A stretch of DNA of 64,000 nucleotides, taken from the NCBI RefSeq assembly GCF_003268595.1, contig NZ_CP029797.1, forward strand, positions 3,183,501 to 3,247,500, in the 5' to 3' direction. This DNA is from Paraliobacillus zengyii. Lineage in GTDB: Bacteria; Bacillota; Bacilli; Bacillales; Amphibacillaceae. The notes beneath the pieces are model-generated. The model searched no databases. It was given only the letters and a program-made list of their open reading frames with translations, and was not told the origin of the DNA. Shown piece after piece: positions 40,192-44,880 of this stretch. A program made the position numbers and the translations under genes. Every line of letters begins with the position of its first letter. The first letter of the stretch is position 1.

Positions 40192-40479
40192 TTATTGTAC
40201 TGATTTCATTGTAGGCTCCGATGGTGTAGGTGGTGTAACTTGATACTTCATCTTGGTCGCTTCACCACCACGAAGGTGTCTGATTGCTTTATGGTGATCA
40301 AGAATATTCTTAACTTCATTTGCTAATTCAGGATTTATCTCTGGTAATCGTTCTGTTAAATCTTTATGGACTGTACTTTTTGAAACACCAAATTCTTTTG
40401 CAATAACACGCACCGTCTTTCTAGTCTCTACAATGTGGTTTCCAATACGAACCGTTCTTTCTTTGATGTAATCATGCAC
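40192..40479 (-). CDS. spoIIID: sporulation transcription factor SpoIIID
   Basis: 95 aa from a GTG at 40479 (HDYIKERTVRIGNHIVETRKTVRVIAKEFG), with GAGGAGG eight bases upstream; this matches the ~93-aa B. subtilis protein better than the ATG at 40509. The helix-turn-helix is VRVIAKEFGVSKSTVHKDL, and the conserved HLRGGEATK basic segment follows. SpoIIID acts in the mother cell, tuning sigma-E genes and activating sigK. An IS1182 copy begins about 240 bases upstream, so the distal upstream region may be altered, but the proximal promoter region looks intact. Confidence 0.95.
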   Translation of the reverse strand: MHDYIKERTVRIGNHIVETRKTVRVIAKEFGVSKSTVHKDLTERLPEINPELANEVKNILDHHKAIRHLRGGEATKMKYQVTPPTPSEPTMKSVQ

Positions 40480-40745
40480 ATCACTAGCCTCCTCGTGTTG
40501 TCTGTCCAAGGTGTGAATGAGACAAGGTGATAGTTGATGTCTTGTTTACTATTTCTTTTACATTTCTCAAAAGTAGGTGTTTTGGTTAGCGCTACATGAT
40601 CACCTTAGACTTGCTTGGTTTGTATCAGTTTATTAGCTAAACTTTTTGATTATGATTAAAATTTGACAAGACAACAAGTGGACAACCATTGTTATTAAAA
40701 GGATCGCATAAAAAAAGAGGCTGGGACAAAACCCAGATAAACAAT

Positions 40746-40790
40746 AAAAAGTTGCATCTTCCAACGGTAGTTGGAAGATGCAACTTTTTT
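40746..40790 (+). terminator. IS-borne terminator upstream of the transposase
   Basis: A perfect 19-bp stem (AAAAAGTTGCATCTTCCAA with TTGGAAGATGCAACTTTTT) and a 6-base loop, symmetric, with T-runs on both strands. It lies between the left inverted repeat and the transposase start and would block transcripts entering from outside. The equivalent in copy 1 is at about 5873-5920. Confidence 0.75.
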
Positions 40791-40874
40791 ATAAAATCGA
40801 AAATTTTAGTAAGTAAAAAAGGATACCTTCTGATAAAATTAAAGTACCACACAATAACAATCGGAGGTATCCTT

Positions 40875-42599
40875 ATGTTTAAAGATTATAACATGAATCA
40901 AGTAATTCTGCCGTTAGATTTTGAAATGAAATTACAAAAAAATGATATTGCCTATACAATCCATGACTTAGTAGAACAAATACCTGATAAAGCATTTTCT
41001 GTTTTCTTACATGAAACAGGTTGTCCTGCTTATCATCCACGCATGATGATGAAGGTTATTTTATGTGCTTACACGCAATCTGTTTTCTCTGGAAGAAAAA
41101 TTGAATCATTACTGAAAGATAGTGTACGTATGATGTGGTTAGCGCAAGGTTATGAGCCAAGCTATCGAACGATTAATCGTTTTCGAGTCAATGAAGAAGT
41201 ACAAGAACTGTTACGCCAATGTTTTGTACAATTTCGATGCCAACTGGTGAAAGAAGAGCTGATTGACCAGGAAGCGATCTTTATTGATGGCACCAAAATA
41301 GAAGCAAATGCCAATAAATTTACGTTTGTTTGGCGAAAAGCGATTGAAAAATACAGTGCGAATTTGGTGGAGAAATCAAATCAACTGTACGATGAATTAT
41401 TGGCAAACGAAATTATTCCAGAAATAGAACGCGAAAGTACGGAAGAACTATCCACTAAAGAACTCGAAAAAGTAGTTGAGAAACTAGAGAAGACCGTTGA
41501 AGGATACGACAAACAGATCGAAGAAAGTAAAGATGTCAGCAAACGGAAGCAGCTTCGCTCTGCAAGGAAAACACCAAAAAAATACCGCAAACAGTTTAAA
41601 GATTACGTAGCACGCAAACAAAAATACGAAAAGGATAGGCTTATATTTGAAGCGCGCAATAGTTATTCAAAGACAGACCATGATGCCACCTTTATGCGCA
41701 TGAAAGACGATTATATGAAGAATGGCCAATTAAAAGCAGGTTACAATGTACAAATTGCGACCGAAGGACAATATACACTCGCATATGACGTATTTCCCAA
41801 TCCAACTGATGTACGCACATTCACTCCTTTTCTAGATAAAATCGAGGAAAGCTTCTTTGAACTTCCCACATATATCGTAGCTGATGCAGGGTATGGAAGT
41901 GAACAGAATTATGAAGATGTCCGCATTAATCGGGAGCGCATCCCGCTGATTACCTACAATATGTATCGAAAAGAGAAGACAAAGAAATATAAGCAAGACC
42001 CTTTTAACACAATGAACTGGGCGTATGATGAAGCGAGTGATTCTTTCCGTTGTCCAAATGATAAAAAAGTGGCTTTCCAGTATCTATCTAATCGAACAGG
42101 TAAAGATAACTTCACCCGATCCTTTAAAGTCTATGAATGTGAAGACTGTTCGGATTGTCCGTTGCGTTCCCACTGTACAAAAGCAAAGGAAGGAAATAAT
42201 CGAAAAATTTATTATAATGAAAAATGGGAACAACAAAAAGCATACACAAAACAGCAGCTTTCAGAAAAAGAAACCGGTAAAATTTATGGCAAACGAAAAA
42301 TAGATGTAGAACCAGTCTTCGGATTTTTGAAGGCTAATTTGCGTTTCACTCGTATGTCAGTAAGAGGCAAGAAGAAAGTGGAAAATGAATTAGGATTTGC
42401 ATTCATGGCGGTGAACTTGAGAAAGTACACGGCTAAGCATGCGCATGGTGCAACAAATCCTGAAAATAATCCAACAAAAAAAGATTCCGACCATCTTCCT
42501 AAGATGATCGGAATCTTTTTCGTTATTTTGGCTAATTATGTCCCAGCCTCTAAAAACATTAACCAACATCGCCATGTCCAGGATCAGCCATTATGTTGA
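40875..42599 (+). CDS. IS1182-family transposase
   Basis: 574 aa from the ATG at 40875 (MFKDYNMNQVILPLDF), preceded by CGGAGGTATCCTT; upstream in-frame codons lie in the inverted repeat and terminator and are rejected. Domains: DUF772-like N-terminus, DDE core with IDGTKIEANANKF and YIVADAGYGSEQNYED, a long charged insert, the zinc-like CEDCSDCPLRSHC and a conserved KIDVEPVFGFLKANLRFTRM. Relative to copy 1, one T is missing near 42526-42531, so the frame misses its own stop and runs out through the inverted repeat for about 16 codons into flanking DNA. The extra tail is probably harmless. Confidence 0.88.
   Translation: MFKDYNMNQVILPLDFEMKLQKNDIAYTIHDLVEQIPDKAFSVFLHETGCPAYHPRMMMKVILCAYTQSVFSGRKIESLLKDSVRMMWLAQGYEPSYRTINRFRVNEEVQELLRQCFVQFRCQLVKEELIDQEAIFIDGTKIEANANKFTFVWRKAIEKYSANLVEKSNQLYDELLANEIIPEIERESTEELSTKELEKVVEKLEKTVEGYDKQIEESKDVSKRKQLRSARKTPKKYRKQFKDYVARKQKYEKDRLIFEARNSYSKTDHDATFMRMKDDYMKNGQLKAGYNVQIATEGQYTLAYDVFPNPTDVRTFTPFLDKIEESFFELPTYIVADAGYGSEQNYEDVRINRERIPLITYNMYRKEKTKKYKQDPFNTMNWAYDEASDSFRCPNDKKVAFQYLSNRTGKDNFTRSFKVYECEDCSDCPLRSHCTKAKEGNNRKIYYNEKWEQQKAYTKQQLSEKETGKIYGKRKIDVEPVFGFLKANLRFTRMSVRGKKKVENELGFAFMAVNLRKYTAKHAHGATNPENNPTKKDSDHLPKMIGIFFVILANYVPASKNINQHRHVQDQPLC
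42475..42520 (+). terminator. IS-borne terminator inside the transposase 3' end
   Basis: AAAAAGATTCCGACCATCTT pairs with AAGATGATCGGAATCTTTTT within the last coding segment (KKDSDHLPKMIGIFF). It ends transposase transcription, and its symmetry means it may also end transcripts arriving on the minus strand from the peptide gene. The equivalent in copy 1 is about 4136-4183. Confidence 0.75.
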
Positions 42600-42714
42600 C
42601 AGAAATATTCACTTCTTCTTCGCCGGTAGATATTATATCCGTCTCTACCAGAGTAACTTGGCTACCTACTAATAAAATAACAGCCAATAACATTGATGAG
42701 AAAATTTTCTTCAT
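42559..42714 (-). CDS. AimP/Phr-like secreted signalling pre-peptide (51 aa)
   Basis: A small gene 40 bases downstream of the AimR-like receptor gene on the same strand. AGGAGGTGAATAATAC precedes the ATG at 42714. The product starts MKKIFSSMLLAVILLVGS, a secretory signal, then a hydrophilic spacer (TDIISTGEEEVNIS), and ends in MADPGHGDVG. This is the architecture of Phr, PapR and AimP pro-peptides: export signal, pro-region and a C-terminal short peptide that is released and re-imported. The mature form may be the last 5-10 residues; which ones cannot be told. The stop (42559-42561) lies 7 bases from an IS1182 end, so the original terminator is probably gone. Assignment rests on architecture and on its neighbour. 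Confidence 0.75.
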   Translation of the reverse strand: MKKIFSSMLLAVILLVGSQVTLVETDIISTGEEEVNISVNIMADPGHGDVG

Positions 42715-42754
42715 GTATTATTCACCTCCTCTAAATAGAGTTATAAAACTGAGA

Positions 42755-43789
42755 TTACATTTTATCCATAGCATGAAGTGGTAACCGAGCGAAAAAAAGA
42801 TCACTTCTTTTTTCAATAAAATCATTATAGGAACTAATAAGCAGCTTTCTATCCTGATATGCTCGTCCAAGGTAATACTTTGTAAATGGGGTAATCTCAG
42901 TAATTCCAATTAGTAATTCTTGAGCCCTTAAAAAGTTCTCTTTTGCTATTTCCAAATGTGCTTGTTCACTCCAATCATTCGTAACAACACCATCTGTTTG
43001 GGCGAAATGAGCACATATAAAGGGGTTGTTTTGATTGTTTATCAAGTTTAATAAACGCTGATCTTGTAAGTTTTCAGCAATTATCTTCGCTTGATTTAAG
43101 TGATACATACAAGAGTTGAAATCATCAAAAATATAGGTTAGACTCAGATTTACATGTAGGTGTGCTTTTTGTTTTTTATTATACATTTTATTTAATAAGC
43201 GAAAGCCATACTTTCTCGCTAAGATAGCTTCATTGCTTTTCCAATAATATGCAAAGAATAACTGATCCAAATTGATATTAGCTAGAGAAATCAACACATG
43301 ATTGTCTAATTTAAGTAACAAGTCTTGTATTTCGTCTAACAAGAAGTTAAAACTTCCATAATCAAACATATCAAAATTTATACTAAGCATTGTATACTTC
43401 ATGACAAACTGTAATTCTTTGTCTTCTGTTTCGATTCTTTGTAACTTTGTTAGAATTTTGTGATGCGGTATCGTCCGAAAACGTCTGGCGAGAACCAGTT
43501 CATAAACAGTAGCCCATTTGTGGTTGATCTGATTTTTACTTTTTTTATTTTTATCTATTAATACTTGTGTTTCTTCATAGAATCCATTCGTATACAAAAA
43601 ATGCATTCCTATTCGCCAATCGACTTCATTTGTTGTGATTAGACAATATTCACTTGTTAATTTGATAACCGTATCATCATCTTTTTCCATACTAGCTACC
43701 GTAATAAATTCGTTTAGATTACTTATTCGATCCATTTCTATCTCGGTACTTTTGTTGTTTTCCTTGCGGAGAGCGTTATCTTGTCTCAT
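42755..43789 (-). CDS. AimR-like (arbitrium receptor family) peptide-binding TPR protein, no evident HTH
   Basis: 344 aa from the ATG at 43789 (MRQDNALRKENNK), with GGAAGGAGGGG upstream. The body is all-helical TPR-like. The C-terminus YYLGRAYQDRKLL..SYNDFIEKRSDLFFARLPLHAMDKM parallels the end of the SPbeta AimR (YYLKGRLEQNKACFYSSIEYF...FLIRLPLLELQKM), and the segment SEQAHLEIAKENFLRAQELL parallels its LQEQAHCFINFNENSKAKEVL, as recalled from the published protein. SPbeta AimR has ~50 further N-terminal residues with a DNA-binding domain. Here that part is absent: a stop codon sits just before the ORF and the DNA upstream is AT-rich non-coding. It may act on a protein partner, as Rap does. The ligand is probably the downstream 51-aa pre-peptide. 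Confidence 0.75.
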   Translation of the reverse strand: MRQDNALRKENNKSTEIEMDRISNLNEFITVASMEKDDDTVIKLTSEYCLITTNEVDWRIGMHFLYTNGFYEETQVLIDKNKKSKNQINHKWATVYELVLARRFRTIPHHKILTKLQRIETEDKELQFVMKYTMLSINFDMFDYGSFNFLLDEIQDLLLKLDNHVLISLANINLDQLFFAYYWKSNEAILARKYGFRLLNKMYNKKQKAHLHVNLSLTYIFDDFNSCMYHLNQAKIIAENLQDQRLLNLINNQNNPFICAHFAQTDGVVTNDWSEQAHLEIAKENFLRAQELLIGITEITPFTKYYLGRAYQDRKLLISSYNDFIEKRSDLFFARLPLHAMDKM

Positions 43790-43987
43790 AAACACCCCTC
43801 CTTCCAAAATCAACCATCACTTATTATTATTTCATATATTCATAATAATTCAACCCTAAAGTCTATATTTTTTCGACAATTTCCTGCAAATATTCAAACT
43901 AGTGATGAAAAAGTTAATTAAGTCTATGATTTAATCAACTATTTTTCATTATACTTTTCTTCTATTCTACTTTAACAATCCATAGAC

Positions 43988-44031: not shown

Positions 44032-44880
44032 TTATGTGTTCGTTGTTGCTCTAGAAGATTCTTGCTCTCCTGTCGACTCATCTGGGTTTGGAACAGTTTC
44101 TGTTTCATCATTTTCTGCTTCATCTGTATCTTCTGCTTCATCTGTAACTTCTGTTTCTTCAGCAGATTCCTCAGCACTTGGAGCTTTAATATCTGCTAAT
44201 GGTTTGTTCAAGTACATTTCTGGATCTACTGCTACGTTGTCTTTTCGGATTTCAAAATGAACATGTGTGCCGCTTGCTTGGCCATATACATTTTGACCTG
44301 AAGTTGCAACACTCTCACCTTGCTCAACCTTTTGGCCCGCTTTGACTGTTACATCTTGTAAACTTGCATAATAAGTAGAAACACCATTCTCATGTTCCAT
44401 TTCTAGTACATAGCCTAGCAATGGATCTTCCTTCACTTCTGTAACCTCACCGCTTAATGCTGCAGTTACTGAAAATGTTTCATCTGAAGCTGATGCAATG
44501 TCTATACCTTTACTTTGGTAGTATTTATTGTTGTATAGAACGAGTGCTTGTTCTTGCTCTTCAGATGTCTTATCGAAATCATAAAATTTTGTTACAATGT
44601 CAGTTTGACTATCTTCCGCTACTGGCATCTTTACGACTTCTGATTGACTTACAACAGTATCTGAATCTTGTTCATAGTCTAATGGATTCCCATTAGAATT
44701 TCCTAGATTCGTCTCTGTATTATCCGTTGCCTCTGGAATCTGGTTATCTAAATTTTGATACCATAGAACACCAGTTAACAATAGTGCAGCAACTGTTAAA
44801 TATACAGCAGGAAAAAACCATTTCTTCTTGAAGATACGTTTCCAACTTTGTTTTGAAACGTTATTATTATCTTCTCTCAT
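44032..44880 (-). CDS. spoIIQ: stage II sporulation protein Q (SpoIIQ)
   Basis: 282 aa, made in the forespore. It binds SpoIIIAH across the septal space to form the channel needed for engulfment and sigma-G activity. A membrane anchor (WFFPAVYLTVAALLLTGVLWY, residues ~17-37) is followed by an M23/LytM domain: SKGIDIASASDETFSVTAALSGEV to GTHVHFEIRKD. The first zinc-ligand His of active M23 enzymes is Ser here (SKGID), as in Bacillus SpoIIQ, so it is probably non-catalytic. A ~50-residue tail after the LytM domain is very acidic (ETEVTDEAEDTDEAENDETE). Confidence 0.93.
   Translation of the reverse strand: MREDNNNVSKQSWKRIFKKKWFFPAVYLTVAALLLTGVLWYQNLDNQIPEATDNTETNLGNSNGNPLDYEQDSDTVVSQSEVVKMPVAEDSQTDIVTKFYDFDKTSEEQEQALVLYNNKYYQSKGIDIASASDETFSVTAALSGEVTEVKEDPLLGYVLEMEHENGVSTYYASLQDVTVKAGQKVEQGESVATSGQNVYGQASGTHVHFEIRKDNVAVDPEMYLNKPLADIKAPSAEESAEETEVTDEAEDTDEAENDETETVPNPDESTGEQESSRATTNT

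Follow-up and report, generated by a model that had tools for sequence, protein, structure and literature searches.

A chromosomal arbitrium-lineage receptor lacking its DNA-binding domain, its candidate signal peptide and a probable link to sporulation

The present analysis concerns a stretch of 64,000 nucleotides (nt) of the Paraliobacillus zengyii chromosome (contig NZ_CP029797.1, positions 3,183,501 to 3,247,500), hereafter the window, and more particularly a 344-residue receptor of the AimR (arbitrium) lineage devoid of a helix-turn-helix (HTH) domain, together with the small pro-peptide gene whose open reading frame (ORF) begins 40 nt downstream of it. We regard it as likely that both constitute a peptide-receptor pair of arbitrium descent, carried on the chromosome and inherited vertically, which has been recruited into the sporulation programme, the receptor probably helping cells to decide jointly when to form spores. 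Throughout, repeat records of a genome already counted (L002-L005, L010) are kept out of the counts, as is the duplicate receptor L132_2, which is included only in the rows and offsets of the box/-10 hexamer analysis. Start codons were set by rule and several are uncertain (e.g. L067, L083, L101, L102, L127, L142, L143).

The receptor and its missing helix-turn-helix

The preliminary description of this DNA, made from the sequence alone, had proposed an AimR-like tetratricopeptide-repeat (TPR) receptor, an identification that stands since the best match is to AimR and not to some unrelated family. Pfam PF22871 (AimR) matches the window receptor with 225.6 bits for a cut-off of 26.7, residues 43-343 aligning to positions 3-309 of the 309-position model, as well as 64/64 aligned relatives, and the closest folds are the AimR crystal structures. 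In the predicted model, residues 1-20 are of low confidence and the helices from residue 25 on make up an AimR-type TPR domain, with 18 helices arranged in nine TPR-like pairs; besides this peptide-binding domain, the C-terminal capping helix, which is part of the AimR dimer interface, is retained. Of the columns in the alignment of the 64 sequences, 5 are invariant and 30 nearly so. Among the AimR residues described as anchoring the AimP peptide, namely N202, R228, N273, Q299 and E300, the last of which contacts the peptide N-terminus (PMC9232636), E300 corresponds to E275 of the receptor, kept in 62/64 sequences, and N273 to N254, kept in 44/64.

The DNA-binding AimR is defined by an N-terminal three-helix HTH spanning residues 1-49 (PMC9232636), which the window receptor does not possess. 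NCBIfam NF038310 and PHROG 1728 align to it only from model positions 44 and 51, respectively, and the alignment of the receptor-family profile to the AimR crystal structures starts only around residues 43-48. As the reading frame is open over 353 codons, any N-terminal extension would amount to nine codons at most, and a profile built from the HTH regions of 17 HTH-bearing relatives detected none in the 86 HTH-less loci, whose stretch between -300 and +150 was searched in three frames. The absence of this domain, as first read from the sequence, is thereby borne out by profile limits, structure model and upstream DNA alike. Regarding the other well-known HTH-less receptors, the Pfam scan gave no match of the window receptor to RapH_N, the N-terminal three-helix bundle of Rap, up to an E-value of 1, and a Rap-type phosphatase identity was rejected on structure, this bundle being missing.

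The receptor is present in 125/159 genomes and 39/46 genera of the window's family (the genera named in the contig scan being Paraliobacillus, Aquibacillus, Amphibacillus, Lentibacillus and Ornithinibacillus), and matches at 1e-3 were obtained in 56/397 sampled genomes of the order, 14 of these 56 coming from the family of the window itself. HTH-bearing relatives are among the weaker of these matches. Only one of the matches listed contains an internal stop. In trees of the TPR domain, from which L009 and L069 were left out, the HTH-less receptors of the sporulation (spo) loci, of a second fixed locus and of family groups f2, f7 and f36 fall together on one side of a branch, with 97 rows in a quick tree and 70 rows, at a support of 100/100, in a careful tree that dispensed with row L154, a long branch, and with 27 more rows from spo loci; every HTH-bearing row (17 in the quick tree, 16 in the careful one) is placed outside it. 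Five further rows without recognisable HTH (L153, L155, L156 and L175 twice) are placed elsewhere. Some of the AimR-like receptors L155, L156 and L175, outside the main clade, are accompanied by repeated peptides, e.g. DPGEPIGT twice in L155, and these receptors suggest that the HTH was lost more than once.

The second fixed locus, represented by 11 fetched loci (L102-L106, L108, L125, L127-L130), lies between speB (agmatinase) and a DUF1934 gene followed by argS, one such neighbour or speE not being seen in the fetched stretch for three of the 11; it is common to f36 and also occupied in L137, L140 and L143, the latter with three receptors in tandem. No convincing peptide gene was found at the 11 second-locus copies. 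The internal stop mentioned above is in a second-locus copy of G032. In f7 (L157-L166), HTH-less receptors sit elsewhere on the chromosome and several have peptides of two to three units like DPGDPGMG, DPGDSGVG or DPGDGGIG. Of note, the spo locus of G085 (L132) harbours two receptor copies about 3 kb apart with identical match scores and N-termini, i.e. a recent duplication, and in the Rap-containing genus g36 the receptor of G133 and G127 (L133, L136) is very divergent, with the Spo0A box kept and no peptide gene found.

The candidate signal peptide

The unlisted 51-aa gene with a strong ribosome-binding site and the C-terminus MADPGHGDVG reported in the preliminary description was confirmed by its ORF and by scoring of its Shine-Dalgarno (SD) sequence. 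A fixed rule, requiring an SD, a hydrophobic leader and a C-terminal DP followed by 3-10 residues, retrieved such an ORF downstream of 33/59 spo-locus receptors, compared with a mean of 0.10 and a maximum of 1 over 20 shuffled sets, and downstream of none of six neighbouring genes (spoIIQ 0/58, spoIID 0/56, murA 0/19, spoIIID 0/57, mreB-like 0/54, flhO 0/49; 0/293 in total). Receptor and small ORF occur together far more often than chance would allow. Adding L097, L070 and three leaderless cases brings the peptide genes to 38/59, so that the arrangement by which RRNPPA systems are recognized, that is a small secreted pro-peptide gene with a C-terminal signal beside the receptor, is found in the window and at 38/59 loci, secretion being judged by hydrophobicity alone and three of the 38 being without leader.

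The C-terminal unit is the constant part of these ORFs and usually of eight residues, e.g. DPGHGDVG, DPDYGDVG, DPEYGDVG, DPGLGDID or DPGYGDIF, and occurs in tandem in several relatives, with 4 copies in L081, 5 in L079, 9 in L070 (as DP[GE]HGDMF) and 14 in L078. Tandem pro-peptides are known from other RRNPPA systems (PMC11343458), and DPG motifs were reported earlier in AimR-type peptides, namely for AimR and for subfamily 08 (PMC12700828). DPGHGDVG is likely the mature signal in the window, as the tandem repeats and the C-terminal conservation in relatives would indicate with respect to processing. In genus g15, which counts 17 genomes in the family survey, all seven loci examined (L039, L042, L043, L044, L091, L093, L094) exhibit, directly after the receptor stop, a leaderless ORF of 15-22 codons whose last residues are DPDYGDIG or DPDFGDIG; an SD-like stretch accompanies each of them.

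The spo locus and its Spo0A box

Read along the minus strand, the genes of the window follow one another as spoIID, spoIIQ, receptor and peptide, then, beyond an IS1182-like element, spoIIID and mreB-like. The position between spoIIQ and spoIIID given there is thus correct, with the qualification that it is interrupted in the window by the IS1182-like element. This element starts 7 nt beyond the peptide stop codon, hence the peptide gene is intact, and it is not part of the receptor-peptide system. Across the family, the receptor gene immediately precedes spoIIID, in the same orientation, in 110/117 genomes with both positions listed, at a median distance of 622.5 nt (range 216-2249); among the seven exceptions, G004 and G006 keep the receptor beside spoIIQ, with spoIIID farther away. 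This fixed locus, together with the lack of any match to the receptor among phage records at 1e-3, agrees with the initial impression that there is no phage context, and phage carriage as in the arbitrium system is not seen.

Upstream of the receptor genes, the commonest 8-mers derive from TTTGTCGAACGATT. TGTCGAA, the core of the Spo0A (0A) box (PMC3485338), is found within 250 nt of 48/57 spo-locus receptor genes, the window included, for a shuffled mean of 1.4 and maximum of 6 (L009 and L069 being left out of these counts). It precedes 4/27 receptors at other loci, 0/12 in f7 and 0/22 of the remaining, mostly HTH-bearing rows, the zero counts being a rougher control because the upstream stretches of the f7 and HTH-bearing rows start at the edge of the open frame and not at the start codon. 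It was not found upstream of spoIID (0/54), murA (0/16), spoIIID (0/55) or flhO (0/50), and the spo0A promoters of the same lineage, taken as control, contain it in 29/30 cases. Three g15 loci carry TGACGAACGA in its place, and neither form is present at 7/58 distinct loci, G001 included. The commonest offsets of a -10-like hexamer from the box, L009 being here again left out, are 38 (11 cases), 39 (8) and 49 (13). As judged by sequence, the receptor gene has the 0A box in its promoter that would be expected of a member of the Spo0A regulon.

Besides, spoIIID is present in 151/159 genomes of the family and the receptor is absent from all eight genomes without it (14 receptor-absent genomes, not itemised in the survey listing, were identified by elimination). 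Taken with the synteny and the Spo0A boxes, this strengthens a link to sporulation that had earlier been suggested from position alone. The Rap N-terminal domain, for which B. subtilis served as positive control, occurs in 13/159 genomes (12 over the cut-off, 4/46 genera), two of which (G017, G042) have frames of about 430 codons that may be NprR.

The features of the locus are gathered in the table below. Near the end of the insertion sequence, a 20-nt inverted repeat (42478-42520) could terminate transcription from either side. Several loci, L121 among them, have a short ORF starting MCG with a good SD just ahead of spoIIID, which is distinct from the signal-peptide gene and sits where B. 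subtilis has the usd leader ORF.

Features of the receptor-peptide locus in the window
Feature	Position	Strand	Basis or remark
HTH-less AimR-lineage receptor, 344 aa	42755..43789	minus	ORF, profile and structure comparison
Receptor Shine-Dalgarno, AAGGAGG	43797..43803	minus	read from sequence, scored
Putative sigma-A promoter, -35 TTGAAT (43848-43853), -10 AATAAT (43826-43831)	43826..43853	minus	consensus match only
Spo0A box core, TGTCGAA	43872..43878	minus	sequence match, 89 nt upstream of receptor start
Pro-peptide gene, 51 aa, hydrophobic leader, C-terminus MADPGHGDVG	42559..42714	minus	ORF, conserved in many relatives
Peptide-gene Shine-Dalgarno, AGGAGGTG	42723..42730	minus	read from sequence, scored
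Codons of the putative octapeptide DPGHGDVG	42562..42585	minus	repeated units and conserved C-termini of relatives
spoIIQ, conserved upstream neighbour	44032..44880	minus	named as in the preliminary description
spoIIID, conserved downstream neighbour	40192..40509	minus	named as in the preliminary description
IS1182-like insertion sequence	40716..42551	plus	terminal repeats 40716-40731 / 42536-42551

Proposed mechanism, alternatives and known systems

In the mechanism that appears likely as a whole, Spo0A would control the receptor-peptide operon via the conserved 0A box, and the pro-peptide, by analogy with RRNPPA biology, would be exported by its leader, trimmed to a C-terminal octapeptide of DPxxGxxx type and, after re-uptake by the cell, held in the groove of the TPR domain. 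With the HTH lost, the receptor is unable to read DNA in the manner of AimR; its output is most likely a protein-protein contact, an output which the Rap family shows can control sporulation but which, given the missing Rap bundle, must here differ in kind from that of Rap. The receptor may thus bind some sporulation-pathway protein, for which members of the phosphorelay and Spo0A are the first candidates, with the peptide releasing or engaging it, and entry into or progress of sporulation would thereby depend on peptide concentration. A bolder version, which we advance only tentatively and hold to be somewhat less than an even chance, is that in a family mostly without Rap an arbitrium-lineage receptor independently lost its HTH and took the Rap role in the Spo0A circuit, and that the leaderless octapeptide signal of one genus is a cell-private timer, unless exported by another route.

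Several observations weigh against a peptide-controlled sporulation receptor. None of the three outcomes that the preliminary description had named as refuting it (an intact HTH, a best match to an unrelated family, no conservation of the small ORF in relatives) was observed, but the small ORF, conserved at the 38 loci counted above, is not so everywhere: no peptide gene was found at 21/59 spo-locus receptors, among them that of sister genome G001 (L067), with which the window's genome alone shares its genus and which is also without a perfect Spo0A box. Only E300 and N273 are kept of the named AimP anchors, N202 corresponding to an unconserved position, Q299 to a serine and R228 to a position that is weakly conserved as judged from the alignment. 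TGTCGAA further exceeds its shuffled frequency in front of spoIIQ (13/54 for a shuffled mean of 1.2) and, to a lesser degree, of mreB-like (6/55). Conversely, spoIIE and spoIIGA are Spo0A targets in B. subtilis, and TGTCGAA precedes spoIIE in only 2/29 cases (the broken spoIIE of G137 being left out of the comparison with spo0A), even TGNCGAA preceding spoIIGA in only 1/30; the frequent 8-mers upstream of spoIIE (L246-L274) overlap into AGTCGAACGATT, which is one base off the extended form that the box takes in the receptor promoter. The eight genomes without spoIIID span only three genera and the receptor is absent in 26/151 genomes with spoIIID, so that it is not essential for sporulation, while the sporulation role and the protein partner are themselves proposals from sequence and analogy.

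Among the alternatives, the receptor could regulate transcription indirectly, as a peptide-switched co-regulator or anti-activator acting on a DNA-binding protein (SpoIIID, Spo0A or AbrB) and not on the phosphorelay, in the way RapF acts on ComA, a case which demonstrates that HTH-less TPR receptors can mask DNA-binding domains (PMC3246441). Although spoIIID is a constant neighbour, gene order need not imply interaction, and the operon appears to stop before spoIIID, as some g15 loci (e.g. L091, L093) show a hairpin with a run of T's beyond the peptide gene, and there is a usd-like start between the peptide gene and spoIIID; this possibility strikes us as rather unlikely. The loci without peptide gene, at the spo and second positions alike, would suit an eavesdropper or sponge that binds DPG-type phage AimP, thereby dampening communication between phages or setting off sporulation in response to it. 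Eavesdropping was proposed for chromosomal AimRs without pro-peptides (PMC9765709), and the spread of DPG motifs across AimR-type peptides, including those beside the HTH-bearing relatives L147 and L148, points the same way. Yet the receptor has its own peptide gene at most spo loci and matches no phage record at 1e-3, and a Spo0A box in a fixed sporulation neighbourhood does not suit a defence role, which makes this idea improbable. Least credible is a captured phage receptor drifting after loss of the HTH, with the peptide as a leftover: peptide or whole gene have been lost in some lineages, and G001 is without peptide and perfect box, but matches in 39 genera with the single internal stop, the invariant columns, a conserved promoter element and a peptide motif repeatedly expanded, up to 14 copies, contradict it, and we consider it very improbable.

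A large HTH-less lineage of single origin in the AimR clan, in addition to Rap and one Anoxybacter subfamily, would mean that peptide-switched DNA binding has become peptide-switched protein binding on more than one occasion and that arbitrium-type receptors play a bacterial part in sporulation. The leaderless variants raise the question of whether the peptide acts between cells or inside one. Rap proteins are the only RRNPPA members without HTH according to the discussion of PMC9765709, and HTH loss was inferred for Rap and the Anoxybacter subfamily in PMC12700828. No description of the present family was found in searches of open-access papers, though some of its receptors may be listed among the subfamilies tabulated with PMC10075063 and PMC12700828.

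Compared with the AimR-AimP systems of SPbeta-group phages (YopK, phi3T AimR), which have the HTH and are phage-borne, the present receptor is HTH-less, located on the core chromosome and vertically inherited, its gene is preceded by a Spo0A box, it is not known to have an aimX-type target, and its signal is usually of eight residues whereas AimP is a hexapeptide. The putative eavesdropper AimRs of PMC9765709 are likewise AimR-like receptors found on chromosomes outside prophages; in that source, a pro-peptide candidate is given for 11% of the AimR outside prophages and plasmids, most AimR outside prophages being called putative eavesdroppers, whereas here the receptors are HTH-less and 38/59 have a peptide gene. 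Chromosomal AimR-like receptors also make up subfamily 21 (Alkalihalobacilli) and subfamily 08 (Paenibacillaceae) of PMC12700828, whose available text mentions no HTH loss in the AimR clan; the present family may overlap with subfamily 21. Regarding leaderless communication peptides, these are short leaderless signal ORFs like those of g15, with the difference that here they stand within a lineage whose relatives keep the leader. Finally, Rap-Phr of Bacillus is likewise a peptide-controlled, HTH-less TPR protein tied to sporulation, but Rap has an N-terminal bundle that the window receptor does without.
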